From assembly GCF_000189635.1 (NCBI RefSeq), contig NW_002476539.1, forward strand, positions 145,334 through 209,333: a stretch of 64,000 nt of DNA, given 5' to 3'. Each line of letters opens with the position of its first letter. Positions within the stretch are counted from its first letter, which is position 1. Both the position numbers and the translations under genes were made by a program. The notes below the pieces were generated by a model. It saw nothing but the letters and a program-made list of their open reading frames with translations, was not told where the DNA came from and searched no databases. This DNA is from Tetrahymena thermophila SB210 (lineage: Eukaryota > Ciliophora > Oligohymenophorea > Hymenostomatida > Tetrahymenidae). This document shows positions 3,087-60,997 of the stretch, in pieces.

Positions 3087-6000
3087 TCATTTTAAAATAA
3101 GAATGAAGAGTAAAGTTGATAAATAGATCAACACGAAGCCTACGATGATGATTTTAATTTTATCATTCATATCACTAATATTTTTGTTAAGTTGAGTTAT
3201 TTAGTCATTTTAATTAGCAGTAGATATTGGTTTGTTTAATTTTTTAGAGTTCTTTCTGCTTGACTGCGAAGTGTTTCTGCGAAAAGTTGGAGATCTTAAT
3301 ACTATACTACCAGCATCAGTTTGGCTGTAAATTTCGTTGAGGTCATCTTGCAAATCTATGCTTTATATTTTTATGTTGTCTGATTTAATTTGCTTAAAAT
3401 TTAATCCTGTTTAGAAAAAATCTATTTGGTAATTACTAAGATATTCCTAGACATACATTTAGAATGCTTCTTGATAAGCAGGCAATACACAATTTTTAAC
3501 AGCTATATGGGATTGCTCAATAGTGCCATTCTCTATTTTTCCCTAGAGGAAGGTGCTTTCTAAGAAATGAACATAGCTATATTAGCTGAAGTGTATATTT
3601 TCTTCATCTATTTATTTAAATATACTTCTAACACGAACAGTAAAAGAGTCTCCCTTAGGTATACCACTTGTAAAGGCTTCTAAATTGACAACTATGGTAT
3701 CGTTTGAAACCCAATAAACTCTTGTTACTTCTCTTACTTAACAAGTTTTTGGCATAAAAGGGATATTGCTAGGAGGTAAAGGATGAGTTAATCTAACCTC
3801 CCTCTCACTATAATCAGGAGAAGCTATTAGATCTTCATCGAGTCTTTATGATTTAAACTAGAAATACTTAGGAATAGGAGGAGAAAACAAAGTACTTTAA
3901 TAATCATAATCTCCCATTTTACCTCTTTTTATGTATTCCTAAAAATCAGAGTATTCTTTAAATTTAAGTGAATCGCTGAAGAAGAAATTAAAAACTTATT
4001 GCAAATTGATTGCTTAATTTTAATAGTTGAATGTGTAATCTATCAATTTATGTTTGTATTTTTCGTTAGGTTCTATAGAAGAGAGAATTCTTCTTTTTCT
4101 GTTTTCTATTTCAGCTTTTAAACTTTCTTTTTTTTAAGTATCACTTTGTTTGATTGGAGAACTATTCTAACTAGCTATTTATTTGCTAAGGTTTACTTAC
4201 TATTTGTTTGAAATATATTGAGAAACAATCTACTCAAAAAAGGGTATAATCACTTTAGCAGATATTCTCTACTATTCTATAGTGTTGCTTTCAATTTAAC
4301 CTTACAGAAACGTGCTTTGCATGAAGTGTAGGTAAGATTTTTATTATAATTATACAGTGAATGGGTCAATTTATTCAAATTAATATCTCACCCTAACACT
4401 AAAAGAATCACCTTTAGGGATTCCACTAGTAAATGCTTCTATATTAAGGATAAGCATTTAATCAGATACATAGTAAGCTTTAAGAACTTCTTTAACTTGA
4501 CATTCTTTAGGCATAAAAGGAATATTAGAAGGAGGTAGAGGATGAGTGAATTTTATTTCTCTCTCACTGTAATGAGGAGAGTTTATAATTTTTTACAAAA
4601 TTTCTTCTTCAGAACTACTTACTTCGTGTATGAAAGAAGGAACTGGAGGTAAAAACTTAGTTGCTTGATAATTTTTATCATTGAATTTTTTAATTTTTAA
4701 GTATTCATAAACATCTGAGAAGCCTTAATATGAAATTGTATCATCAAAAATTACTTTTAAGGATTATTTTTAAAAATCAATTAATTATTTTTATGAAATA
4801 AAAATTTTTTAAAGTATGAGAAAGAAAGAAAAAAATTAATGAAATTTATTTTAAGTAGGAAAATTTAAAATAGAAAAAAAAGAAATTGAAATTTTATAAT
4901 ATTTTAAAAAATAAAAAAATAATGATTTACTTTTAAAAACTTCATTAACTTTAAGACCATTAACAGGATCACTAAACTTAAGGTCAATAATGTCGTGTTT
5001 GTATTTATCGTAAGGATCAATACTGTCCAATACTTATTATTATCGTACTCTGATTTGATGAGAAAAATCTTGTGCTGCGCTTTTTTTCTTTATACTGAGG
5101 GTGCTTTTTTTATCAGAGTCATCGTTTGCATCACTTTTTGCTATTAAATTCCTTCTTTTTTCATTTTTATCTTATAAAAACTGAGTTAATCTTTCTTAAA
5201 AGCTTTTATAAATTTCTTAGGTTGATTTCACACCTTCCTTTTACGATTAAGAATCAATAGTTCCACTAAACCAGTTGCTTTTTAAGAATCTAACATCCAT
5301 TTAAACCTGTATTTATTAAAATTTATAATTTTTATTTTGACTTATCTCTAAAGGATTAATTAAAATTTGTTCTTGATTTATAATTAATTTAATTTAATTA
5401 TTCATTTATATTTTATTATTAATTACTTTGTAGCTCACAGTGTCTGGAGTTAATTATACAAATGTATTTCTTATGAAATGATAGAATGTGTCTGTCATGG
5501 GAGCTCCAGAAGAGTAAGCTTCAAGTTCAAATATAAGCTCATCAGGACTTATAAAAATAATTTTTTGTTTTTCAGAGACTTTGCAAAACTTAGGAAGGAA
5601 AGGCATTCCTGAAAGAGGGATGGTTTTGTCATAGGTAACTTATCTTTAGCTAATTTCAATCCAATCTTATACTTTTTCTTTCTTTTTCTCATTTTCTTCA
5701 GAGAAGGGATAATTTTGTTGTCTGAATAAATTTAAATTAATAAATAAAAAATATTTTGAAATGAATTTATAAATTAAATTTCTTACTAAAAGTATTAAGG
5801 TGGTGGTGGAGACCACTTTTCTATCTGTATATTCCAGCACTTCATTACGTTTTCGATATAATAATAGAAAAAGTTATCATAAACTGTGTTGGTCGAAGGA
5901 TTCTAATACTGGAAATCCCCCAAACAAGCCTAGAAAACATCCCTAATGGTAATATTTTCTCCTTTTAAAATGACATCACATAATTCAAATTTGAATGTTT

Positions 6001-14853: not shown

Positions 14854-14870
14854 GGCTTATTAGTATTAGG

Positions 14871-14913
14871 ATTCATGAAAATCTCAGTAAGTACTTTAGA
14901 AATTTTCATTCAT
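14871..14913 (-). promoter_or_regulatory. SECIS-like element in the 3' UTR of the selenoprotein
   Basis: Read on the minus strand: an AUGA (14913-14910) followed by an 11-bp helix (AUGAAAAUUUC pairing with GAGAUUUUCAU, one U-G wobble), a 13-nt apical loop starting UAAAG, then GAAU (14874-14871). The AUGA/GA pair can form the tandem sheared G-A core of the SECIS kink-turn. The unpaired AA of the loop begins 13 nt after the quartet, the spacing of a type I SECIS. A lower helix can form between CUUAUU upstream (about 14924-14929) and AAUAAG downstream (about 14855-14860). The element lies about 470 nt 3' of the in-frame TGA. One deviation: the base expected to make a U-U pair is A. Confidence 0.72.
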
Positions 14914-15119
14914 TGGTAAATAAGGAAATTGTATTCTTTGTTATGAATAGTTATACTTCAATTTGAAAAGACATCCTACAAATCAAATGAATGACTATTT
15001 TATTAGTTAGAGTCAGATATTTATTTATTCACTTTTCAATAGATAAAACCTGCTAATTAGTAAACATTTTTTGTGGGATGGCCATATTTAATATTTGCGT
15101 TTGGCAAACGCTGCTTTCA

Positions 15120-15509
15120 TCATCTGTCTTCGTAAAAACTGATTTATTATTCAACTCTATCAACCAAAGTATGAATATTATCTCCTGCTAAAGAGCCATC
15201 TCCTTTTAATTTACTCCACACCTAAACTTGATCATCTGTATTAATTTAGAGGAAAACTTCAAAACTATGATCTTTTTCTTATGATGGGAAGCGATTCACT
15301 TTAACTTAATGATTTTAATTGCCCTACTCGAAAGTTGACTGTAAATGTGATTCGAGTAAACGCAAAGCTCTATTTGATCCTCATGTTTTACAATACTTTA
15401 CATCAAAATTTAAAGTAGCGAAGCTATTATTAAGTGCCTAGTGTAAAAACATCGGTTTTTACTGTTTTTTTATTAGAAAACCCAGGCTTTTTTATAAAAT
15501 TTTATTCAT
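15120..15509 (-). CDS. selenoprotein of the SelW/Rdx (CxxU) type, 129 aa, TGA read as Sec at residue 43
   Basis: Start ATG 15509 (leader GGAAAAATG); TGA 15381-15383 falls in frame at codon 43; termination at TGA 15120-15122, directly followed by a second TGA. The sequence around the internal TGA is DVKYC-KT-U-GSNRALRLLESHL, the exact CxxU-G layout after a beta strand and before a helix that defines SelW/SelH/SelT-type Rdx proteins. Downstream, FEVFLQI and VWSKLKGDGS match the conserved strands (in SelW: FEV and HSKKKGDG). The usual family size is about 85-130 aa. The thioredoxin-like fold and CxxU suggest a redox role. The stretch before the motif (MNKILQKSLGFLIKK) is basic and could be an organelle targeting signal (inference). 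A SECIS-like hairpin sits downstream at 14871-14913. No intron with GT/AG borders removes the TGA. Confidence 0.88.
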
Positions 15510-23694: not shown

Positions 23695-25164
23695 TCATTT
23701 TTATTAATCCAAAAATTGATTAGCCTTTTTAATAAAAGGAGATAATAGCTTAGCAATATATAACTCCTTTTCATTTTCTTTGAGAGCATACCAATCATAA
23801 TCTTTAATTTCAATAATAATATATCCTTATTTTTCCAAACATGTATGCTTGATTTAGTAAACACCTGAATATCTATTATGCACATAATGAAATCTGCCAT
23901 TAACTTCTACTACTATTTTTTTACCATCTAAATGTGTTAAAAAATCCACATTAAAAGAATCTATATGATGATTTTCCTTCAAGTGAATTTTAGGAATAAA
24001 TTTCAAAAGATATGGTTGGATTTCCTCTTACACTTTACTAGATTAAACATGCATATTTTTATATCTGAAAGCAGGCATGAAAAAATCATCAATTTCTTTG
24101 TTTGTAAACAAAGAGTAAACTTTCAAAAATATGTTAAGAGGCTTAGAAATATGTAATGGAAGGTTTCTATCCTTTTGATGGTGAATTTTAATAAGCTTTA
24201 AGAGAATATCATGCATACTTTAAGTTGATTCAAACTGCAAAGCAAAAAAGAAAAGAATATTTGGAACATAAGGTAAAATTGTTTCATTAAAATACTATTA
24301 ATACTCTTCAGCTAATAGCCTTTATTCTATTTGTCTAATAAAGTAACCCTCCATTTTTTAATTGAAGTAGTTAGCTTTTGTAAAAGCTGGTAAATAAACA
24401 TTCATCATATCGCTAAAAGTCAATTTATTTTAAGCTGTGTTTTCAATTATGTTTAAAATCTTTTCTTGTACTGCATCATAAAATTCGACAGATCCTTTGA
24501 AATTTTAACTATAAACTTTAACTATTTGCCTTATATGATTTTCTTCTAATTAGTCTAATCTTTATAAAAAGAAGCTTTCTAATTCAATTAAATAAAGTTT
24601 TTTTTGGCTTTTCTGCATAAAATATTCGAAAATAACACCAAGTTCTTTATTGCTGTAACGAGCATCAAATAAATCAGGCTTTTTCATTTATTGATATATC
24701 CTCTCGCGGAGTGGATTGTCTTAAATTTGGCATTTTTCAAGCACTCTTAAGCAACTAATGAATGCATTCTTATCTTTGATTTCATTGTTTTCTATTTTAT
24801 CTTTTAAATCACTTTAACGTACTGCATCAATCAAGCTATCCCCTTTCTCTTTAATTGCATATAATATTTTATCAAAAGTCTCTGCTGATAATTCAAAATG
24901 TTGCTCATTTTCAGTATTCTATTGCTAATTCTCGCTTTAAATTTAATCTTAACAGTCATCATCTAAATCTTCTAGTTTTTATTGCTATTTATTAAAATGC
25001 TTGTTTTATTTATTAAGCCTTGCAAAGCAATACTTCTATTTCTTATGCAATTCAGCTTAAATCAATAAGAAAGTCCTCTGCTAATATTCAACTCCTACCT
25101 TATTTAACAACTATAGTGAAAAAAAACCCTATTGCTTTAGAATTTTTGATATTCCTTTAATCAT
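23695..25164 (-). CDS. RAP-domain protein, probably mitochondrial RNA metabolism, 489 aa
   Basis: Intronless: ATG 25164, TGA 23695-23697, 490 codons. The C-terminal 100 residues form a RAP domain: SFNVDFLTHLDGKKIVVEVN then GRFHYVHNR, YQIKHTCLEKQGYIIIEIKD and YDWYAL, which reproduce the family pattern of a DF strand, EV(D/N)G-H restriction-endonuclease-like core, K-x-L-x-x-x-GY and I-x-x-x-x-W. Residues 95-380 are helical with repeated 30-40 residue blocks, as in FASTK/OPR-type RNA-binding proteins. The N-terminus (MIKGISKILKQQGFF) is basic, amphipathic and Ser/Gln-containing, suiting a mitochondrial presequence. RAP proteins act in organelle RNA processing and translation; the exact target is unknown. 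Open frames at 23637-23900 (-) and 23965-24156 (+) are shadows. Confidence 0.9.
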
Positions 25165-26009
25165 TTCTTTAGAGAAAAAAACTTTATATATTAAACAAAA
25201 TTAATTAAATGAAAAATAGTAGAAACTTCTATATCCAAATTTTTTTATGCTACTAAATTTTTAAATTAATCTTATTCTAAAATTAAGCTAGGTTGGCTGG
25301 CCAATGAAATTATCAGAATGTTAAAACATACCAAAATATCTTTGACTTTGTAAAGAATTTTATCAAATAAATTTATTTAAATAGATTTTAAAACCACCTT
25401 GTAAGATTGTTAAAAAGATAATAAAACAAACACATTTTAAATAGGATAATTTTTTTATTGTTAAATTTGTTAGTTTAAAAAAACTTGCTTGAAATTTTGA
25501 TAAATAAATTTTTAATCATTAAAATTTTTATATTAAACATTAAATCAAAAATTTAAAATAAAATACAATATAAATTCCTTTTGAATCTTTCTTTATTCTT
25601 CTTATCATGATTATTTATTAAATAATTTATTTATTTTATAAAATTTAAAATTATTTTTCATCAAAAATTTTCAATTTTATTTATTTTTTTATTATTTTTT
25701 AAAATTAAAAAAAGATTTTAATAAATAAACATTTCTATCTATAAATTCTGATAAAAAAGATAATATGAAAGGATTTATTTTTTTATAAATTGGTTATTTA
25801 CTCATTCGAAGGATTACTAAATAAAGTTTTAAATATAAATTAATTTTTAATAAATATAGTTTTTCAAGTCTATTCAATTTATTTTGATTAAAGAAGCATT
25901 TTTGTTTTTTTATTTTTGAAACTTTAATTTGATTCTGATTTATTTATTTAAAGTCATTTAATAAATTAAAATGAATAGGATTTTTTGTGTTTCATAGAGG
26001 AATTTAAGG
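25165..26009. other. intergenic, includes RAP gene promoter
   Basis: About 850 nt, extremely AT-rich with poly-T and TTTA runs. No gene seen. Confidence 0.5.
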
Positions 26010-45094: not shown

Positions 45095-47566
45095 ACAAAA
45101 TAAAAAGCTTAAGTAAATAAATAAATTAATAATCAAACACTTAATGCTAAATGAATAAAGATATTACATCCCACCTAACAAGTCATTTATATTTTAAATT
45201 CATAAATTAGTTACTATTTTCAAAATAAATATAATTATGACTTTGCTATCAGTAGACATCTTTCTTTTCTTTAAATTATGTCTGTATTTTTTATATTGGA
45301 TCCATTAATAGAACTTTAATGGTTTAATTGCTATAATAGCATTTTATTAAGCTTACATCTTAAATTCCAGCTCATTATTTTAATAATCAAAATTTTTTTT
45401 CTTCTACTGAATAAACTAATTTTATTTACTTTAAAGTATTTGATTTAAATTTTATATGAAGTAACAAAGTAAATTTTGTCTTAAAATATTAGTAATCCTT
45501 ATTCTAATTTTTGATTTTCTACTAAAAGATCATTTAAGAGTATCAAATATGAAATCAGATATTTATTTACTTTTTTTAATAAATGTGTATCTGCCATCAA
45601 AACATTTAATACAAAAAAATACATTTTTTACAGCAAACTTACTAAGATTTCTTCAATTTCCCAATAAATATTAACACAAAAATCTATATTTTAGTAAGCA
45701 TCTCTCATTTAATTACAATGATTCACTAAATTTTTAATAAGTTATCCATTTTTATCGTTTATTGTGAAGTTTACATGCCTCTTCTATATTTAAACAAATA
45801 GGTGTTAAATAAACCAGCTTAATAATTATCAAAATAAATTTATTATATAAAATTCTTTTTTATAAGTATAAAACTTGGAATTGTACTTATTTATTAACTC
45901 CCCTCTTAGTAATGGCTTAAATTTATTTCTTAGAAAAAAAGAATAAAAAGTATTTAAGGGGGCTTTTAATTTAAGAAATATGCAAAATTTAAATAATGTT
46001 TGTATATCACAGTCATTAATACTTGAATGAAATAAAGTAGCAGTAAATAGTTTTAATTCCTTAATTTCTTACGCTTCTCATTAGAATTACACATTTTTTA
46101 TAGCTTTAGATATGTTTAGTTATAGAAAATTAAATAGGAAAAAAGAGATTAATATTAATTTTCTTTGCTTATAGTAAATTGTAACATTAATCAAAAATAT
46201 CAACACATACATAAAATCTAATTAATAACACTTGAAATATTTCTATACAAATGTTCTTATTCTAAAAAATGTTTATTATGTAACATTGTTTTAAAAGTAT
46301 TGAGTAATAAAATTTTTTTTTTTTGTAATAACTATATCATCTTTTTTCTATTATTTAAAATGAATAAGCAAAGAAAAAATAGATTATAAAAAATCAAAAA
46401 TATAAAAACTAAATTAATTGAATATAGTAATTTGATTAAACATAATAATACAAAAAGATAGAGTTGAGGTAAAATAAAAACAAGATAATGAATGCCATTG
46501 AGGAAGTTAATTTTTAAGATACTACTAAACTAAGTTTTGTATAACATTTTTAAAAGGTTTTTATTTTAAATATTATGAGTCTGTCTCAAAAATGAGAGTA
46601 TACAATTAAAATTGTTTCGCTAACAAATTTTAGTTTTTCAAGTCTTTTATCAAAGTATGGTTTTATCAAATTTTTTAATATTACATTAACAACCTATTTA
46701 AATGAAAATAAAAATTATTGAATAAAAAAAAATCAATTAAGAGCCAAGCTGAAAAATTAACAATTTCTCAATTTTTTTAGTCTTAATAAAATTAATAAAA
46801 GAAAGATAATTAATATATTTTCATGTTTAGATAAATTGAGTATTTTTTAAATAATTTCCAAATTTACTTATATTTGCAAGACAAATAAATTGATTTTTTA
46901 CCTAAAATGTTTATACTAGTAAATAATTAAAAAAAGTAGCTATAACTCTATTTATTATTTATCTTTTTATGGGCTTATTTTGTAATATCATTCATTTTTA
47001 TTTAAATGTTACAAATTAGGAAATATAGCTAATTTCTCGTCAGTTTAAATACTACATAAAATTCATGCTGATATTTAATTTAATGATGATTACAAAACTA
47101 ATTTACAAATAAATTATTATTTCTATCTTGAAAATTTATCATTACAATATATAGTTTTTTAATTGACTAAAGGTGAAATAGTTGTCTTTATTAAAACATA
47201 ATTCATAGGCAATTCCTAAATAAATATATGGAGTATGAATAATTAAATTCTGTGCAGTTTTTTTAGGCAAAAATAAAAGATATACAGATTTATTTTTTAA
47301 TGGTAAAATTTGATAGTTTTATTCATTCTTATTTACTTTAAATTGAACTCTGTTATTTTCTAAATTAGCCATATTTTAATTAAGAAGCGAGAGTGATTTA
47401 CATTATCTAAATAAAAATTCTTTTCATAAATATATAATTGATTTTAAATGCGCTAAATTAAATTAAGAAATTAAAAAATAAACAAATTTAAGTGTAAATT
47501 TACTTCTATTAAAGAAAGAACTTGAGCTTAATTCACTGATTGATTAGCATCTGCTCCAAATAAAAA
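45095..47566. other. intergenic, includes duplicated upstream region of the surface-protein array
   Basis: The first 800 nt are unique; about 45240-45430 has two overlapping minus frames that look protein-like, but neither has a clear start. From about 45940 the sequence is homologous to 53990-55609 and 61370-62669, i.e. the shared 5' flank of the tandem genes. Non-triplet indels between copies argue it is non-coding. Confidence 0.5.
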
Positions 47567-50500
47567 ATGAAATTATTTGTAAATGCAGCTACAATAATAC
47601 TATTTAGTATTATCTAAATCTCACTATCTTAGTCACTACAATAGTTTTCTTCTATATATTCGTCTACTTACTCAAATAAGGTAGACACACTCGACAGGAT
47701 TAACTAAATTTAATTCATTGAGGTAGCAAGTAAGAAAGGGTTTGTGTTTGCCACAGCTGAAGCAGAAGGACTCATAATCCTTGACTCTAATAATAATAAT
47801 AAATTAATCTTTTAAGGTAAGTTGAGTGGCCCTCTTAATTAAGCAATCGCAGTAACTAGTGATGGTTAGCATGTGTTTATAAGTATGAATAACACTTTTT
47901 ATGCATATTAGTTTCTATATTCAGATAATTCATATAACTTGTATTAATATTATCAGAATCAGACTGATGTTTCTCAAATACAAAGAATACAGGTACTAGA
48001 AAATGAGAATCGAGTAATAATTGCCCATCTTTCTGGGCTGCTTACATTAGTTGATATAAGCAAGAGAGACAACTAAATTATAAGTATATTAGCTAATTAT
48101 ACTGTTTAGTCTACTTTGAGAGGACTCAAAATTACAAAGGATATGTTATGGGTAATAATTGCTGATTATAATTATGGTCTTATGGTTTTTTATTGGTAAG
48201 ACCAGACAAAAGCACAAACCAGTTTGAATCTAATTAATGTTGCAATATCACCTTCTGTTTCTCCTAGTTACTTTGTTATAACTTAGGATGGAAGGTACGT
48301 TATGATTATGGAATATTGGGATGGATTCAGTATTATTGATTTGTACCCTATTTAATAAAAGTACATTTAAAATTAATTTACAAATTTTACTGTGGATACT
48401 CCTCCCTTAGTAGTTCCCCATTGGTGGGTCGATCACGATACTTCCCCTGATAGCTTGGCAATTACTATGACAAATGATGAAAATTATGTGATGGTTGGGC
48501 AGAGATCTGTTGGTATTTACATTATTGACATTTCTAACAAATTGAACCCTAAATTATTCCAAATAATTTCAGCTCCGCTTGATTCACTTAGTCTCATTTT
48601 ATCTAAAGATTCATAGTAATAGTATCTTTATTATTCTAATGGAAATTCGTTACTAGCCTTTAAAAAATCAGAACCAAATTTAAATTTAGATGTACCTAAT
48701 ATATTGAATGTACAAAAGTCGACCAGCGTCAATGCAGGAAATAGCAAATGGAGGTGGACTGGAGCTGTAGAGATAAATAATTAATTTCTCTTTTAGAGTT
48801 CTTATGATTAAGGCTTGGCAATAATGGATTTGAGAGTCTCTCCTCAGCTTATGACTTCAGCATATTAAATACCAGTATAGACTAGTGGTGCATCTGTTGA
48901 TCAATTTATTCTTTTCGGTAGGAACGATATTTATTTGGCAGTACCTATTCAAACTTAGACAACTATGATGAATATATATAACATAACAGATAGAACAAAC
49001 CCTGTTTTAATTTAATCTCTACCATCTGATGACCCTTCTTATTCATATTCTATGGACATGAGCGATGATGAGACACTCTTTGTGTTTGATAACAATTTTA
49101 GCTTTGTTTTGTTTAATAGTACCACTATAGGTAAATTTACATAAATTAGCTAGTGGTAATTCTAAAATGGAATATTTGGCGGTATTGCAAATGGATTGAT
49201 TATTTCTCATGATAGTAATTATATTGTAGCTGTAGAAAGAGCTAGTGTTATTTGTGTTGTGGATATTTCAAATAAGAAAAACCCACAATTAGCTAGTTTT
49301 TCTAGAACTAATGGAGGAGAAAACATCATAAAAGCCAAATATGGGGTTAATAAAAAATATGCATTTATTGTGCAAGGCTTGTATGGTATTGATGTAATAG
49401 ACATGACTTAACTTCCACAAATAAAGGTTGTAAGCAGAGTTTAGACTTAAGGATATTCAAATTTTATGTCGCTTATATAGAATAACACATATGCTCTAGT
49501 GAGTTAGCTAGACATTGGTGAAATTAGTTTAGTTAATTATACAGATATTACTCAACCAAAAGTAGTGAGCACTTTTTAATATGTTAATGAGCATGCTACT
49601 TCTGTATGCGCTTCGCCTATAGATGACTACTTCTATATAATTAGTTAGAGCGGCCTGAGAGCAGTACCATTAAAAAGCAACACATACATTCATACTGAAA
49701 TATAATAAGTCTTAAATGCAAATACAGGTTCACCATAGCTTATTCATCTCAGTAAGTATCAGTCTTTGCTTGTTGGATAGCAAATTAATTATTAATTTCA
49801 GATTCTTCTTCCTACTCCTGGAATATAAATAACAAATGTTTATTACATAGAATATGGTCAATTATAAAGCTTGCCATATTGGATGAATTACAATCCTATT
49901 CAATAAACACTTTCTCTTAATATCGTTAAAGACTCTCTAGGTTAAAACTATGACACAAGTAAGAGAAATCAACTGATCTAAAATACAATAGTTGTTTAAT
50001 CAAATATTCCAGTCTTAGCTTCAGACTTAGTATTTACTAAGGCTGTACATGGAGTTGATTAAAGTTTAGATTAGGCAAATCAAATATTGAATTACTTCCA
50101 TAATATAGGTTTACTTGATAAATCTGATTTTGTAACCAGTGTTTTCTAATATTAAAAACCCCTAGGTATTAACCTTAATGGAATAAATTTCAGTGATTAA
50201 TTGCTAAATAATATTAAGCTAGTTCTACAAAACTCCGTAACATTAAATCCTATTTATTTTAATACTCAATCATCACTGAATATTTATTTAAACCCTCCTT
50301 AGAATCAAGGATCTCAGTTATTATATTACATTTCAGCATTACAGAGTAGAGTTTATATGTTTTTAACAATTGATTTATAGTATGGTATGTTTGTAAACAA
50401 AAATTATAATGGTTTGATTTCATCAACTACAAGCGCAAGAAACCAATTACAATTAGAAGGAGATCCATAGGTCTTAAATGCTTGTTTGAATAACAAGATA

Positions 50501-52969
50501 GAGGTTTTTATCCACGGAATTCAAAACGTTAATTCCACATCGAAAATATAAGAAATATTATAATTAGTTAACATCACTGTTTAGCTATAAGATAATACTA
50601 ATTATGACATAATTCAAAATTTCACTATAAATTAAGCATCTTTTTTTAGATTTAGAGACAGATTAGTCTTAAATCCTAATCCTAATATGAACTTGTAAGA
50701 TTAGGTCAATAGCTAATTTTCAAATGGAAAACTAGAAATAAAAACGCCAATAAGTATAGAGTTTTCATAAAGTTCTTTTATTATAATAGATAGCTAGACA
50801 GATCACTCACTTCCTCTAACATATAACGCTTACTTGATATAAGATGGATAATATATTTCCATTCCATCAAATTTTTGGCTTTAGTTTTCACCTTCTCTCC
50901 TCAAATTCACAGGTTAATGCAGTTATTCTGAATTCAATAACAAATATTGTTTCTTTTTGAATGTAACAGATTAATATTCAGTAGCAAGTGACACCTTTTG
51001 TGTAGTAACAAATTAAATACCATTTTTAATTATCCTTAATCTAGTTTTCTAAATTCTCGGTCCTATTATTTTTGTATTAGGACTTTACAAGTACTAAAAT
51101 ATCTTTTATAACTGGATCTATGCTCAAAAAAATTTATATTCAACAGAGATTGCTAAAATCAATCATACCTTTTATCATAGAACGATTTTTATTGGATAAA
51201 ACATGCAAATTGCGAACGAGATTTTTACAAAATTTATTAATGAATTCAATTAAGGCAGAATTTCAATAAGTGAAAGTCCTCAACCCGAAGACTAAACAAA
51301 TGTTAATGACATAGAGCATTCTTAAATTTAAGACAAAGCCAAAGAAATGGCTAAAAAAAATATTTCTTAAGAGCTTAATTTATCGAGAGATTTTTAAAAA
51401 AAGATAACAGATTTAGCTAAAACACCAAATCAAAAACAAACAAAAATAGAATAAACTTATCTCAGTTAAAGGGATTCATCTCTTTTATTTGAAAAGTTCA
51501 TAACAGACCTTCTTAATAATGATATATCATTTAGATTTGATGGAGAAGTTTAATTTGTAACTTCTTATAAAGAGTAACTAAAATCAAAATCTAACTTGCT
51601 GAGACTATCGATCAGGAGTCTTTTAGCTCGCCATCTTCTTGAAAAAGATAAAGTTACAACGAAAGCCTATAATTTCTTAAAATAATATTCGTTAGATTAA
51701 AAGAAATATACTAAAAATGATTGGTACAAACACTATGTGCATATCAACCATATGGAAGAAGATGAAGATAATGATGAAGCTAATTTATCTATTTTGCCAA
51801 TGTCACGTATTGCTGCCACACCATCAAATCTGAACCAGAACTTCAACAGCAATAATAATAATATAAATTTGTAAAGAAAATCAAATAATTGTAATATTCC
51901 TTAGTTAGCAATCAAGAAAGAATCTTTTGATTTGATTTTAAATACTATTAATATAGTGGAAGGAGAGGAAAATACAGCTTAAGAAGCTAATTAATAAGAA
52001 CTTCCTGTTAGAAATAAAAAAACTTCAATTTCAATTAAAGTAATTCAAAAATAAACTAGATCTAAGTTATTTTTGATGATAAATAGACATTTACTTAAAG
52101 AAATTTTATTTGCAGATACTCTTGGACTTGTTAATCCTTCTCCTTCAAGATATCGTCCTTGTTCTGGAGAATCAATCCATTTGGAAGAACATGAAATAGC
52201 CAGTGTGAGAGCTTTTACAAAGGCTAACAAATCTTATCTATCTGGACTGCGTAGAATATTTAAATTAGAATATGTACCTCTTGCCTCCTATGAAAACAGA
52301 AAGCTTCCTTAATGGCTGGATTACACATCTAAACAAGATCTATTTTTACTAAAAGGATGTCCTACTATAGAAGATTAATCTGAAATATTGTTGCGTTTTT
52401 ATAGTTAAAAACAATTCATTTTGAAGTAATTTTTGATTAAAATAGAATAAGATAAGACAGAAAACAATTAATTAAACAGAATTTTCTTTTAAAAGTAGTT
52501 AAATAACAGCTAAAATAATATATAAACCTAACTAAGATTTGGGCACTCTAAATACTATAGTGAAAATAATTAAGATTAGCATTCTGTGGCAGGTACTCCA
52601 AATCCATAAAAAAGCATATTAAATTCAAATTAAAATTTCTTTAAAGGAATATAAAAATCAACATTTTAAGCAACAGCCCTTAATTTAAATTAAAATTATT
52701 TGGGAGAATCCTAAAGTAATGCAGATGATGAAATTATAAGCATGGAAGGAGAGGATATTTAAGAAAATGGTCTTAAGGGATCTAATTTAAAATCAAATTA
52801 TTAAATACAATCTTAAGACATTATTCTTAGTCAAAAAAACACTGCTAGAACAAAATAAGATGAATAATTAGAGTGTTAAGATAATAAGATAAACAAATAC
52901 AGTTTTGATGTTTTAAATATCAAAACAAACAGATAAGCTGAAGAATAGAATGAAGAATAAAATGAGTGA
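47567..52969 (+). CDS. surface protein copy 1: signal peptide, LVIVD-repeat propeller, cadherin-like domain, TM, long tail (1800 aa)
   Basis: Intronless ORF, ATG 47567 to TGA 52967-52969 (1801 codons). Residues 1-20 are a signal peptide (MKLFVNAATIILFSIIQISL). Residues about 45-720 contain LVIVD-type beta-propeller repeats, seen as GLIILDS, LLTLVDISKR, GIYIIDISNKLNP, ICVVDISNKKNPQ and GIDVIDM. Residues about 830-1135 end in a dystroglycan-type cadherin-like fold (FWLQFSPSLLKFTGQ). One TM lies near 1150-1175 (FLIILNLVFQILGPIIFVLG). The tail of about 620 residues carries a Q/N/E/K-rich region and a conserved block (YLSGLRRIFKLEYVPLASYE, PQWLDYTSKQDL). The architecture suggests a cell-surface receptor or adhesion molecule; ligand unknown. 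It is the first of three tandem paralogues; copies 1 and 2 are near-identical over most of their length. Confidence 0.88.
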
Positions 52970-55609
52970 ATTTTTTGAATAATTTAATTCATTTTTACTT
53001 ATCTTAAAAAGATTGTAAATTAGCTAAATAGCTAACTAAATATCTCATTAACTATTATAATTTTACTAAATTACTTAACTATTTTGCTTTTTGAAATTAT
53101 TGTTTGAAATTTCTATCATTTTTTCAATCAAAATAATTTAAATTTATATACTAAAATAATAATTTATATTTAGTGTGAATGTATGCTAAATCTCATTAAT
53201 TACTTGTTAATATTATAAAATTTATTAGTTGTATTCTTATTAATTGAATTAAATATTATTTTTAATAAATGATTTAGATAGTTTAAATTCTAATTTTAAC
53301 AAAAAATTTTGTTTAATTTTATTTGAGGCAGAAGAAATCACCATAAACATTAATGACAACTAACTAATATTGAAATAGAAGCACGAAGAAAATATCTTAA
53401 TCATTTTTAAGGAAATTCTAAAGATAAAATTAATAATTTTAAAATAATTTGATACTATGTTTAACATAATTTAAATATTTATAATTTTAATCAAAATATA
53501 GTTTGGCCTTAATAAATCAAAAATATTTTGATGCTCTTTTTATAAATAAATAACTTAAACCATTTTTTTAAGCTTTACTTGTAAATAGTCTTATTTTTTC
53601 GTTAGTAAAATAAGTAATTTGTTGATCCATTGTAAAAATTATTAAAAAAAAAATTAGTTCTAGTAAAGATTAATATGGTAAATATAAAAATTGCAATTTT
53701 TCCTCTTTAATAAAATGAACTTTCTAACTATTTTTTAGCAAGAAAACTTTATATTAATTATTTATTTATTGAATTAGTTAATTAAAAAGGATTTATACTG
53801 TATTTCCTCTAATTTAAGAAACATTAATTTTATAAATTTAGAGATATTATCTTAATAAGAAAAATTGAGTAAAAAATTAGGAGGAGGGGGTTTGAGCTCT
53901 TAGTTTATGATAATTTATAGTAAATGGTTACATTTAGAATTCAAAGAAAATTTGCATCTAAAAGTAAAATTGATTATAATTATCAAATAAATTGAAAATA
54001 ATTTTTAAAACAAAAGAATAAAAAGTATTAAAGGGGATTTTATTTTTTAAAAATGAAAAATTTAAATAAATTTAAATACTGTTTATTATCACATTAATCA
54101 TACTTGAATAAAATAAAGAGCAGTAAAAAGTATTTATACCTTTAGTTTCTTACACTTCTTATTAGAATTACACATCTTTCTTTAGATATTTTTAATTATC
54201 GAAAACTGAATGGGAAAAAAAATATTAAGATTAATTTTTTTTGCTTTTATAAATTGTTAGATTCATCAAAAATATTTGCATATAGAAAAAATCTAATTAA
54301 TAAAAAATATTTAATAATACTTTTTGAAATATTTCTAATAAATATTCTTATTCTAAAAAATGTTAATTAAGTAACACCATTTAAAAGTAATTTGTAAATT
54401 AATTTTTTAATTTTGTAATAATAATATCATCATTTTTCTATTGTTTAAAGTGAGTAAACTAATTAACAAGAATATAGATAATAAAAATAACAAATATAAA
54501 AACATAATTAAGTTTATTTAAAAATTTGATGATAGATAAAAGTATAAAAATATAGAGTGGATTTGAAGTAAAAACAATATAATTAATGCTATTAAGAAAA
54601 TAACAGATTTAAGATTTTAAGAAAAAAAAATTTAAATTGTTTTGCTAATTAATTTTAGTTTTTGTAGTCTTTCATAAATCATTATTATATAAATTAATAG
54701 GATTTTTTTATTAATCAAAATATTGTTTTACCAAATTTTTTTGATACTGCATTAAGAATTTTTAAATGCAAATAATTGAAAGAAAAATAATTCAATTAAA
54801 GAGCCAGACTCAAAAACTATCAATTTCTAAATTTTTTTTAGTCTTTATAAAAGAATAATAATTTATATTTTCACATATTTAGAAAAATTGAGTTTTTTTC
54901 AATAATTTACAAACTTATTCATATTGGAAAGATAAATAAAATGATATTTTCACAAAAATATTAAAACTTGTAAATAATTAGAAAAATTAACTATAACTTT
55001 GGTTATTATTTATCTTTTCATGTACATCATATTCTTTCCTTTTATTTAAATGTAAAAAGAAAGAGTTTTAGCTAATTACTTTTCAGTGTAAATACTAAAT
55101 AAAATTCATGCTATTTAATTTAATGAGGATTACAAAAATAATTTACAAGCAAATTATCTTTTGTATCTTGAAATTTTGTAATTAAAATATATGCTTTTTT
55201 AATTAACTAAAGTGATAGAGCTATCAATATTGATTAAAATTCATAATTCATAGGCAAATCTTATATAAATATATGGAGCATGAATAATTAAATTCTGTGT
55301 AGTTTTTAGGCGAAAATAAACGATATACAGATTCTTAATTTTTAATGGTAATATTTGATTGTTTTATTCATTCTGATTTACTTTTAATTGACCTCTGCTA
55401 TTTTATAATTAGCCATGCTTTGGTTAGATGCGAGAGTTGTTTAGATTTTCTAAATAAAATATGCTTTTCATTAATATATAATTGATTATGAATACAATAA
55501 TATAATTAAGATTTTAATAAGTAAACAAATTTAAGTGTATATTTCTTTCTTTTAAAGCAAGATTTTTAGCTTAATTCTCTGATTGATTAGCATCAACTCC
55601 AAATATAAA
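52970..55609. other. spacer between surface-protein copies 1 and 2
   Basis: The first 200 nt match the 3' flank of copy 2 (61000-61190). About 53180-53860 is unique to this spacer. From about 53865 the sequence matches the spacer before copy 3, starting with a G-rich box (GGAGGAGGGGGTTTGAGCTC, about 53880). No gene seen. Confidence 0.7.
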
Positions 55610-58600
55610 ATGAAATTATTTGCAAATGCAGCTACAATAATACTATTTAATATTATCTAAATCTCTCTATCCTAGTCTTTACAATAATTTTCTTCTATAT
55701 ATTCGTCTACTTACTCAAATAAGGTAGATACTCACGACAGGATTAACTAAATTTAATTCATAGAGGTAGCAAGCAAGAAAGGGTTTGTTTTTGCAACAGC
55801 TGAAGTAGAAGGACTCATAATCCTTGATTCAAATAATGATAATAAATTAATCTTTTAAGGTAAGTTGAGTGGCCCTCTTTATTAAGCAATCGCAGTGACT
55901 AGTGATGGTTAGCATGTGTTTTTAAGTATTAATAACACTTTTTGTGTATATTAATTTTTATATTCAAATAATTCATATGGCTTGTATTAATATTATTAGA
56001 ATAAGACAGATGTTTCTTAAATACAAAGAATATAAGTACTAGAAAATGAGAATCGAGTAATAATTGCCCATTTTTCTGGACTGCTTACATTAGTTGATAT
56101 AAGCAAGAGAGACAACTAAATTATAAGTATATTAGCTAATTATACTGTTTAGTCTACTTTGAGAGGACTCAAAATTACAAAGGATATGTTGTGGATAATA
56201 CTTTCTGATTATAATTATGGTCTTATGGTTTTTTATTGGTAAGACCAGACAAATGCGCAAAAGACTTTGAATTTAATTAATGTTGCAATATCACCTTCTG
56301 TTTCTCCTAGTTACTTTGTAATAACTTAGGATGGAAGGTATGTCATGATAGTTGAATATTGGGATGGATTTAGTATTATTGATTTGTATCCTATTTAATA
56401 AAAGTATATTTAAAATTAATTTACAAATTTTACTGTGGATACTCCTCCCTTAGTAGTTCGCCGTTGGTGGATTGATCACAATAGTGCACCTAATAGCTTG
56501 GCTATTACTATGACAAATAATGAAAATTATGTGATGGTTGGGCAAAGATCTGTTGGTATTTACATTATTGACATTTCTAACAAATTGAACCCTAAATTAT
56601 TCCAAATAATTTCAGCTCCACTTGATTCACTTAGTCTCATTTTATCTAAAGATTCATAGTAATAGTATCTTTATTATTCTAATGGAAATTCGTTACTAGC
56701 CTTTAAAAAATCAGAACCAAATTTAAATTTAGATGTACCTAATATATTGAATGTACAAAAATCGACTAGCGTCAATGCAGGAAACAGCAGATGGAGGTGG
56801 ACTGGAGCTGTAGATATAAATAATTAATTTCTCTTTTAGAGTTCTTAAGATTAAGGCTTGGCAATAATGGATTTGAGGGTGTCTCCACAGCTTATGACTC
56901 CAGCATATTAAATACCAGTTAATATAAGTGGAGGATCTGTAGATTCATTTTTTCTCTTTGGTAAGAGCCATATTTATTTGGCAGTCCCTATTCAAACTTT
57001 GACAACCATGATGAATATATATAACATAACAGATAGAACAAACCCTATTTTAATTTAATCTATACCATCTGATGATCCTTCTTATTCATATTCTATGGAC
57101 ATGAGCGATGATGAGACACTCTTTGTGTTTGATAACCATTTTAGCTTTGTTTTGTTTAATAGTACCACTATAGGTAAATTTACATAAATTAGCTAGTGGT
57201 AATTCTAAAATGGAATATTTGGCGGTATTGCAAATGGATTGATTATTTCTCATGATAGTAATTATATTGTCGCTGTAGAAAGAGCTAGTGTTATTTGTGT
57301 TGTGGATATTTCAAATAAGAAAAACCCACAATTAGCTAGTTTTTCTAGAACCAATGGAGGAGAAAATATTATAAAAGCCAAATATGGCTCTAATAAACAA
57401 TATGCTTTCATAGTGCAAGGCTTATATGGTATTGATGTAATAGACATGAATTCTCTTCCTGAACTAAATATTGTAAGCAGAGTTTAGATTCAGGGTTATT
57501 CGAACTTTATTTCTCTTATATAAAATAACACATATGCTCTAGTGAGTTAGCTAGATATTGGTGAAATTAGTTTGGTTAATTATACAGATATTACTCAACC
57601 AAAAATAATAAGCACATTCTAATACGTTAATGAGCATGCTGCTTCTGTATGCACTTCGCCTTTTGATGACTTCTTCTACATACTCAGCCAGAATGGTCTG
57701 AGAACAGTACCATTAAAAAGCAACACATATATTCATACTGAAATATAATAAGTCTTAAATGCAAATACAGGTTCACCATAGCTTATTCATCTCAGTAAGT
57801 ATCAGTCTTTGCTTGTTGGATAGCAAATTAACTATTAATTTCAGATTCTTCTTCCTACTCCTGGAATATAAATAACAAATGTTTATTACATATAATATGG
57901 ACAGTTATAAAGCTTGCCATATTGGATGAATTACAATCCTATTCAATAAACACTTTCACTTAATATCGTTAAAGGCTCTCTAGGTTAAAATTATGATACA
58001 AGTAAGTTAAATCAACTAATCTAAAATACAATCGTAGTTTAATCAAATATTCCAGTCTTAGCTTCAGACTTAGTATTTACGAAGGATGTACATGGAGTTG
58101 ATTAAAGTTTAGATTAGGCAAATCAAATTTTGAATTACTTCCATAATATAGGTTTACTTGATAAATCTGATTTTGTAACCAGCGTTTTCTAATATTAAAA
58201 ACCCCTCGGTATTAACCTTAATGGAATAAATTTCAGTGATTAATTGCTAAATAATATTAAGCTAGTTCTATAAAACTCTGTAACACTAAATCCTATTTTT
58301 TTTAATACTCAATCATCACTAAATATTAATTTAAACCCTCCTTAGAATCAAGGATATCAGTTATTATATTATATTTCAGCATTACAGAGTAGAGTTTATA
58401 TGTTTTTAACTATTGATTTATAGTATGGTATGTTTGTAAACAAAAATTATAATGGTTTGATTTCATCTACTACAAGTGCAAGAAACCAACTAAGATTAGA
58501 AGGAGATCCATAGGTCTTGAATGCTTGTTTGAATAACAAGATAGAGGTTTTTATCTATGGAATTCAAAACACTAATTTCACATCGAAAAAAGAGGAATTA

Positions 58601-60997
58601 TTATAATTAGTAAACATCACTGTCTAGCTATAAGATAATACTAATTATGACATTATACAAAATTTTACTATAAATTAAGCATCTTTTTTTTAAATTAGAG
58701 ACAGATTAGTCTTAAATCCTAATCCTAATATGAACTTGTAAAATTAGGTCAACAGCTAGTTTTCTGATGGAAACTTACAAATAAAAACCTCAATAAGTAT
58801 AGAGTTTTCATAAAGTTCTTTTATTATAGTAGATAGCTAGACAGATCAATCTCTTCCTCTCACATATAACGCTTATTTGATAAAAAACGGATAATATATT
58901 TCTATTCCATCAAATTTTTGGCTTTAGTTTTAGCCTTCTCTCCTTAAATTTACAGGTTAATGCAGTTATTCTGAATTCAATAATAAATATTGCTTCTTTT
59001 TGAATGTAACAGATTAATACTCAGTAGCAAGTGACACCTTTTGTGTAGTTACAAATTAAATACCATTTTTAACTATCCTTAACCTAGTTTTCTAAATTCT
59101 CGGTCCTATTGTTTTTGTCTTGGGACTTTACAAGTACTAAAATATCTTTTATAACTGGATCTTTGCTCAAAAAAATTTATATTCAACAGAGTATGCTAAA
59201 ATCAATCATACCTTTTATCATAGAACGATTTTTATTGGATAAAACATGCAAATTGCGAACGAGATTTTCACAAAATTTATTAATGAATTCAATTAAGGCA
59301 GAATTACAATAAGTGAAAATCCTATACCAGAAGACTAAACAAACGTTAATGACATGGAACATTCTTAAATTTAAGACAAAGCCAAAGAAATGGCTAAAAA
59401 AAATATTTCTTAAGAGCTTAATTTATCGAGAGATTTTTAAAAAAAGATAACAGATTTAGCTAAAACACCAAATCAAAAACAAACAAAAATAGAATAAACT
59501 TATCTCAGTTAAAGGGATTTATCTCTTTTATTTGAAAAGTTCATAGCAGACCTTCTTAAGAACCATATATCATTTATATTTGATGGAGAAGTTTAACTTG
59601 TTACTTCATATAAAGAGTACATAGAATCAAAATCTAACTTACTGAGACTATCTATCAGGAGTCTTTTAGCTCGACATCTTCTTGAAAAAGATAAAATCAC
59701 CATGAAAGCCTATAACTTCCTAAAATAATATTCGAAAGATTAAAAGAAATATACTAAAAATGATTGGTACAAGCACTATGTGCACATCAAGCATATGGAA
59801 GAAGATGAAGATAATGATGAAGCAAATTTATCTATTTTGCCAATGGCACGTATTGCTGCCTCACCATCAAATCTGAATTAGAACTTCAACAATAATATTA
59901 ATATAAATTAGTAAAATAAATCTTATAATTGTAATATTCCTTAATTATCAATCAAGAAAGAATCTTTTGATTTGGCTTTAAATACTTTTAATATAGAGGA
60001 AGAAGAGGAAAATACAGCTTAAGAAGCTTATTAGCAAGAAATTCCTGTTAGAAATAAAAAAACTTCAATTTCAATTAAAGTAATTTAAAAATAAACTAGA
60101 TCTAAGTTATTTTCGATGATAAATAGACATTTACTTAAAGAAATTTTATTTGCAGATACTCTTGGACTTGTAAATCCTTCTCCTCCAAGATATCGTCCTT
60201 GTTCTGGTGAATCAATTCATTTGGAAGAACATGAAATAGCCAGTGTGAGAGCTTTTACAAAAGCTAACAAATCTTATTTATCTGGACTGCGTAGAATATT
60301 TAAATTAGAATATGTACCTCTTGCATCCTATGAAAACAGAAAACTTCCTTAATGGCTAGATTACACATCTAAACAAGATCTATTTTTACTAAAAGGATGT
60401 CCTACTATAGAAGATTAATCTGAAATATTGTTGCGTTTTTATAATTAAAAACAATTCATTTTGAAGTAATTTTTGATCAAAATAGAATAAGATAAAACAG
60501 AAGACTCATAATTAAATAGAATTGTTTTATAAAAGTAATTAAATAGCAGCTAAAATAATACATAAAACTAATTAAGATATAGGAACACTAAATAGTACAG
60601 TGAAAATAATTAAGATTAGCATCCTGTGGTATTCACTCCAATCCAATTAAAAAGTATATTAAATTCAAATTAAAATTTCTTTTAAGGAAATTAAAAATTA
60701 ACAATTTAAGCAACAACATTTAATTAAAATGAAAACAATTTTGGAGAATCCTAAAGTAATGCAGATGATGAAATTATAAGCATGGAAGGAGAAGATATTT
60801 AAGAAAATACTCTAAAGGAATATACTTTAAAATCAAATTATTAAATATAATCTTAAGAGATTATTCTCGGTCAAAAAAATGCTCCTAGAACAAATTAAGA
60901 TTAATAATAAGAGCGTTAAGATAATAAGATAAACAAATACAGATTTGATGTTTTAAATATCAAATCAAACAGTTAAAATGAATAATAAAATGAATGA
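55610..60997 (+). CDS. surface protein copy 2 (LVIVD / cadherin-like / TM), 1795 aa
   Basis: ATG 55610 to TGA 60995-60997, 1796 codons, no intron, same domain order as copy 1. Differences are scattered, many at third positions, with a few whole-codon indels in the Asn-rich tail (NSNNNNINL in copy 1, NNNINI here) and a shortened C-terminus (SNSQNEQQNE). The open frame is fully preserved over 5.4 kb, indicating selection or recent duplication. Propeller motifs GIYIIDISNKLNP and VICVVDISNKKNP are unchanged; substitutions cluster in loops such as RRWWIDHNSAPNS versus HWWVDHDTSPDS in copy 1. Expressed function is expected to match copy 1, possibly with different ligand-facing loops (inference). 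Confidence 0.88.

Follow-up and report, generated by a model that had tools for sequence, protein, structure and literature searches.

How can one codon specify both selenocysteine (Sec) and the end of the protein within a single gene? This question is raised by a minus-strand gene in a stretch of 64,000 nucleotides of Tetrahymena thermophila DNA (the window), which a preliminary description had read as a SelW/Rdx-type selenoprotein gene with TGA in both senses. The dual use as such is already in print: in the excerpted texts, UGA is given as the only stop and the Sec codon of T. thermophila by PMC7409322, citing Eisen 2006, and is called predicted or highly likely in these two roles by PMC2612030 and PMC2636879. 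The dual reading is supported for the window gene, as set out below, and is not new, having been stated in PMC7409322 and PMC2612030. The assignment of TAA and TAG to glutamine in this genome is likewise supported.

Translated with genetic code 6 and TGA as Sec, the gene is a single open exon with a product of 129 aa (Table 1). The preliminary description had placed an in-frame TGA at 15381-15383, at the U of a CxxU motif; this position is right, the strand being the minus strand, and the codon is residue 43 in the context DVKYCKTUGSNRA. The gene does end at a TGA, as had been claimed, and another TGA adjoins it.

Table 1. The window gene, its SECIS-like element and the Rdx-type loci of the genome. 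Positions are those of the window unless a contig or locus is named.
Feature	Location	Strand	Basis
SelW-like (Rdx) selenoprotein gene	15120..15509	minus	code 6 translation with TGA as Sec; Pfam PF10262, 31.9 bits
Start ATG	15509-15507	minus	translation
Basic, acid-free N-terminal extension, residues 1-35 (5 K/R, 0 D/E)	15405..15509	minus	residue count
In-frame TGA read as Sec, U of the CKTU motif, residue 43	15381..15383	minus	translation; paralogues C15 (TGA) and C255 (Cys)
Terminating TGA	15120..15122	minus	translation
Second in-frame TGA directly after the stop (backup stop)	15117..15119	minus	sequence
SECIS-like element with 10-bp helix, 3' flank	14866..14920	minus	scanner, shuffles, covariance model
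SECIS core: ATGA, AAA, TGA	14913-14910, 14897-14895, 14875-14873	minus	element 14866..14920
SelT-like, in-frame TGA, CIGU	contig C4, L001:1153-1923		genome search
SelW, in-frame TGA, CGGU	contig C334, L004:1474-1752		genome search
SelW-like, in-frame TGA, CVSU	contig C15, L015:1444-1809		genome search
Window gene, CKTU	contig C35		genome search
Cys version, CDSC	contig C255		genome search
CQNC, within a longer frame	contig C154		genome search

The open frame of 86 codons that follows the in-frame TGA is by itself weak evidence for readthrough, because TGA accounts for 1.7% of the triplets on both strands of 20 genome stretches, and chance alone would leave about 23% of frames of this length open. 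What raises the window gene above chance is homology, namely its match to the Rdx family and the alignment of its post-TGA part with a paralogue. With the Pfam Rdx profile (PF10262), residues 36-116 of the protein score 31.9 bits, where the cut-off is 22.6, and Rdx is the only Pfam family listed by hmmscan at E-values up to 10. Together with the TGA at the U of the redox motif (KYCKTUGS), this agrees with the family proposed in the preliminary description. The profile search of the 129-aa translation had a divided outcome, however: Pfam Rdx lies above its cut-off, and NCBIfam TIGR02174 (CXXU_selWTH) gave 28.4 bits, short of the 34.2 bits of its cut-off. With the same model the paralogue on C15 passes (37.7 bits) and that on C255 stays under the cut-off (15.2 bits). 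The part of the window protein after the TGA scores 16.7 bits with Rdx when taken alone, which is under the cut-off.

A structure predicted from the single sequence was poor (mean pLDDT 59.6), and in this low-confidence model a strand (residues 31-40) and then a helix (residues 46-61) lie around the CxxU motif. When the model was submitted to Foldseek, none of the 50 listed of 1062 matches was titled SelW or Rdx; their TM-scores by query ranged from 0.25 to 0.50, the best being mitoribosome and complex I entries. These were rejected as evidence of family, Rdx having been the sole hmmscan entry for this protein up to an E-value of 10. A phmmer search of the protein against the PDB gave three matches, with E of 0.96 or worse and none named Rdx or SelW.

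Homologues were sought in the genome (101 Mb, 445 contigs). A profile search with Rdx returned four matches, the window gene and the C15 locus not being among them, and a search with the window protein returned three, namely itself, C15 and C255; both searches combined give six Rdx-type loci. Two of these we take to be SelT (C4) and SelW (C334), judging in part from motif, length and TIGR02174. The C15 protein is 37% identical to the window protein over residues 26-124 and has a TGA at the position of the window-gene Sec, while C255 carries a Cys there (CDSC). The in-frame TGA thus occupies the place of a catalytic Cys, with a second TGA-bearing gene and a Cys homologue in the same genome. The frame after the TGA is conserved between the window gene and C15, with 32 of 80 residues identical (40%, E = 8e-16 in a single comparison).

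If an intron removed the TGA, the gene would encode an ordinary protein, and of the 82 GT..AG pairs that enclose this codon at a spacing of 20-200 nt, 25 would keep the frame. However, each of these 25 introns would take out U43 together with all or part of the C40 codon, although both columns are common to C15, C255 and the window protein, and the SECIS-like element described below would be left unexplained. We regard an intron here as very unlikely.

The window protein shares with the C334 SelW the Rdx domain, the CxxU motif and a SECIS-like element in the 3' flank of the gene. It differs in that 27 additional residues precede the first motif Cys, in being just 20% identical in the alignment, and in a basic N-terminal extension that is absent from the C334 protein. 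In the window protein the N-terminal 35 residues contain 5 K/R, in the C15 protein the first 29 contain 5 and in the C255 protein the first 28 contain 6, with no D/E in any of the three; the start codons are predicted, and the C255 N-terminus is counted from a Met later than the first in the frame. This composition suggests that the extension is possibly a mitochondrial presequence.

A SECIS-like element was spotted by eye in the 3' flank, and then by script, as ATGA-N12-AAA-N19-TGA at 14913-14873, with 206 nt from the stop of the window gene to the start of the core. The element would form part of the 3' UTR of the mRNA. A scanner whose rules were set after the element had been spotted gave it -7.7 kcal/mol; the next best match in the 64-kb window, both strands, was -2.4. 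As a null, 400 1-kb windows were taken from the genome; none had a match at or below -6 kcal/mol, and 18 had a weaker one. With dinucleotide shuffles of the 400-nt flank, 1 of 2000 reached the observed value for the window gene, and 1, 0 and 0 of 2000 did so for C4, C334 and C15, the SECIS-like cores of which start 62-88 nt after the stop. At its wider setting the scanner found a 3'-flank match at -6.8 kcal/mol or below for all four TGA-bearing Rdx genes, and all six published T. thermophila SECIS, five of them at -6.8 kcal/mol or below and that of GPx_141160 at just -3.5. The narrower setting found five of the six published elements and three of the four Rdx elements. No SECIS-like match was found by the scanner within 1 kb after the match of the Cys paralogue on C255, or after C154.

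A cleaner test than this scanner, with rules that postdate the sight of the window element, is a covariance model (R1) trained on seven elements (those of C4, C15 and C334 plus four published ones), with the window element left out. R1 was run on 28 of 39 sources (the window and 38 loci), 287,766 bases in all; L003, L005-L012, L014 and L017 were omitted as tRNA loci or because of overlap with other loci. For the window element the model gave 33.5 bits (E = 0.0013, its E-values being rough), four training elements scored 39.3-46.1 bits, and the best non-SECIS match, among 22 matches in all, reached 17.7 bits. Ten unpadded SECIS elements were left out of register by MAFFT, and the loops were then padded with N. 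In an alignment of eight elements, hand-padded to the helix II structure, 92.5% of the 80 cells of helix II pair, and sliding the helix II partner by one to three columns drops pairing to 35.0-62.5%; both-side changes occur in nine of the ten pairs of this hand-padded helix. The ATGA/AA/GA core and helix II are recognized in the window element by both R1 and the scanner, with Rfam silent on it: near the window gene Rfam gave six weak matches (E of 10 or less), all outside the SECIS families, and Rfam SECIS_1 searched genome-wide (132 of 1998 candidates scored) gave one match, below the cut-off, after the C334 SelW. A locus on C384 (L043), which matched a portion of the joined SECIS query at 73%, was discarded as a candidate; about 800 nt were read by eye in six frames, in which no selenoprotein frame was seen.

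The window locus might also be a broken Rdx gene, in which a nonsense mutation has replaced Cys by TGA; a single TGA does interrupt the frame. But C15, which is 37% identical, has its TGA at the same place, the frame beyond it is conserved (the comparison at E = 8e-16), and a SECIS-like element lies downstream, so that a pseudogene seems extremely improbable.

The machinery for Sec insertion was found in the genome as well. The search for tRNA-Sec gave one match above the cut-off (68.6 bits against 47), and the TCA anticodon is visible in the gene. The cut-off matters here, because all 14 prokaryote controls match but only 5 exceed it; nine other matches in the genome lie under it, and two of the checked loci are tRNA-Ser genes. 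ARAGORN, run with the bacterial code, did not report a tRNA-Sec gene. SepSecS (E = 1.7e-126) and an EFSec domain (E = 5.2e-28) are present, and the SECIS of SPS2 was located. An SBP2-like gene, TTHERM_00395870, and SPS2 are reported for T. thermophila in the excerpted text of PMC7409322. Among other selenoprotein families, searches for Sep15/SelM and SelK gave no matches, with their controls likewise silent, and a search for MsrA gave four matches, none with an inner TGA.

The UGA at residue 43 could in principle be read as Cys or Trp, by a readthrough that does not depend on a SECIS. The C255 paralogue does have Cys at this place, and UGA serves as Trp, stop and Sec together in the ciliates Condylostoma and Parduczia (PMC4967479, in excerpt). 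However, a SECIS-like element and the Sec machinery are present, and UGA is the general stop of T. thermophila according to the excerpted PMC2612030, so that we give this reading hardly any credence.

We thus consider it highly probable that the window gene encodes an Rdx redox protein, probably mitochondrial, that receives Sec by the SECIS-dependent, standard eukaryotic route and terminates at a later UGA. Most of the computational tests point to a real selenoprotein gene, and the mechanism would be the usual one. The product would be a small thioredoxin-like redox protein of the SelW/SelT/SelH (Rdx) type. Its SECIS, in the 3' UTR, would recruit EFSec carrying Sec-tRNA(UCA), along with an SBP2-like protein, and the Sec-tRNA would outcompete eRF1 at the UGA at 15383-15381, placing selenocysteine in the CxxU motif; termination would follow at the second UGA, which lies 206 nt ahead of the SECIS core and has a third UGA adjoining it. 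Sec insertion, redox function, organelle and the part of SBP2 are here what we infer for this gene.

In Euplotes, UGA encodes both Cys and Sec within one gene. As in the window gene, UGA has two meanings within a single mRNA, but in Euplotes the two meanings are two amino acids, whereas here they are Sec and stop. The codes of Condylostoma and Parduczia, as excerpted from PMC4967479, resemble that of Tetrahymena in that UGA is both Sec and stop; they differ in that UGA is also Trp and there is no dedicated stop, whereas in Tetrahymena UAA and UAG are Gln and UGA is the sole stop.

The selenoproteins published for T. thermophila belong to other families than the window protein, although they share with it UGA as Sec, UGA as stop, a SECIS in the 3' UTR and the same genome. 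Table 2 of PMC2612030 lists six (two GPx, three TrxR and one SPS2), with no SelW, SelT or other Rdx member. PMC7409322 (2020) counts five, with no SelW or SelT among those named in its excerpted text, and accepts one Sec GPx, for which no SECIS was found there. All six published SECIS occur in the genome, five at 100% and one at 98%: that of TrxR_47660 at 100% over 93 nt, that of TrxR_823430 as an exact 58-nt match, that of SPS2 at 98% and three others at 100%. For 3' UTRs as AT-rich as these, such identity would indicate T. thermophila itself or a strain almost the same. Both published GPx genes (L040, L041) have ACKUGLT with an in-frame TGA, and both have a scanner match, the weak one at -3.5 included. 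No Tetrahymena Rdx selenoprotein is reported in the excerpted portions of PMC2375036, PMC3341644 and PMC4561486, or, by title or start of abstract, among the literature matches listed, subscription papers and gene databases being outside the scope of that search; an existing annotation of these Rdx genes is possible. As far as this literature shows, the new element is the four Rdx selenoprotein candidates, namely the window gene, C15, SelW and SelT. Four further candidates would nearly double the count of five, which would weaken an argument in PMC7409322, the excerpted text of which states that such counts give no confirmation of a link between aquatic life and large selenoproteomes.

The preliminary description held that the choice between Sec and stop rests on UGA context alone. 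This leaves out the SECIS in the 3' UTR, which marks the mRNA and is found here by the scanner and by R1 (33.5 bits). The choice between the UGAs of a marked mRNA was compared across ten selenoprotein genes (the window gene, L001, L004, L015, L018, L039-L042 and L044), in nine of which both the Sec and the stop UGA could be placed, SPS2 contributing its stop only. The distance to the SECIS was rejected as a rule, since the 66-651 nt of the nine Sec UGAs overlap the 60-206 nt of the ten stops. Just 6 nt separate the Sec UGA from the following in-frame UGA in each of the three published TrxR genes. G follows eight of the nine Sec UGAs and one of the ten stops (Fisher p = 0.001), a difference that is confounded by the residue after Sec being partly a protein constraint. 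As a sole rule base +4 was likewise rejected, GCT following both UGAs in TrxR_823430. The gene concerned (TTHERM_00823430, L044 on contig C312) ends TGA GCT TGA GCT GCA TGA, where the second TGA is the presumed stop.

In five of the ten genes the stop is followed by another in-frame TGA no more than six codons away. Such backup TGAs are given for 3,046 of 26,498 T. thermophila genes (11.5%) in the excerpted text of PMC6879139; the enrichment, post hoc and in ten genes, has a binomial P of 0.003, or 0.009 against the top codon-bias quartile of that paper. It may be conjectured, and we think it rather doubtful, that a mitochondrial SelW-like branch with Sec and Cys versions exists in Tetrahymena, and that backup UGAs soon after the stop and the G after the Sec UGA have been selected in its selenoprotein genes because UGA is the only stop, the choice between Sec and stop being readable locally. 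Since T. thermophila is a genetic model with ten such genes, this choice is directly testable, above all in the three TrxR genes.

Elsewhere in the window, two plus-strand open frames of 1809 and 1804 aa (47540-52969 and 55583-60997) share a sub-threshold LVIVD match (residues 314-340) and may be tandem duplicates. On the minus strand, a frame at 3087-5876 contains a VASt domain (95.7 bits) and one at 23695-25362 a RAP domain (50.4 bits).
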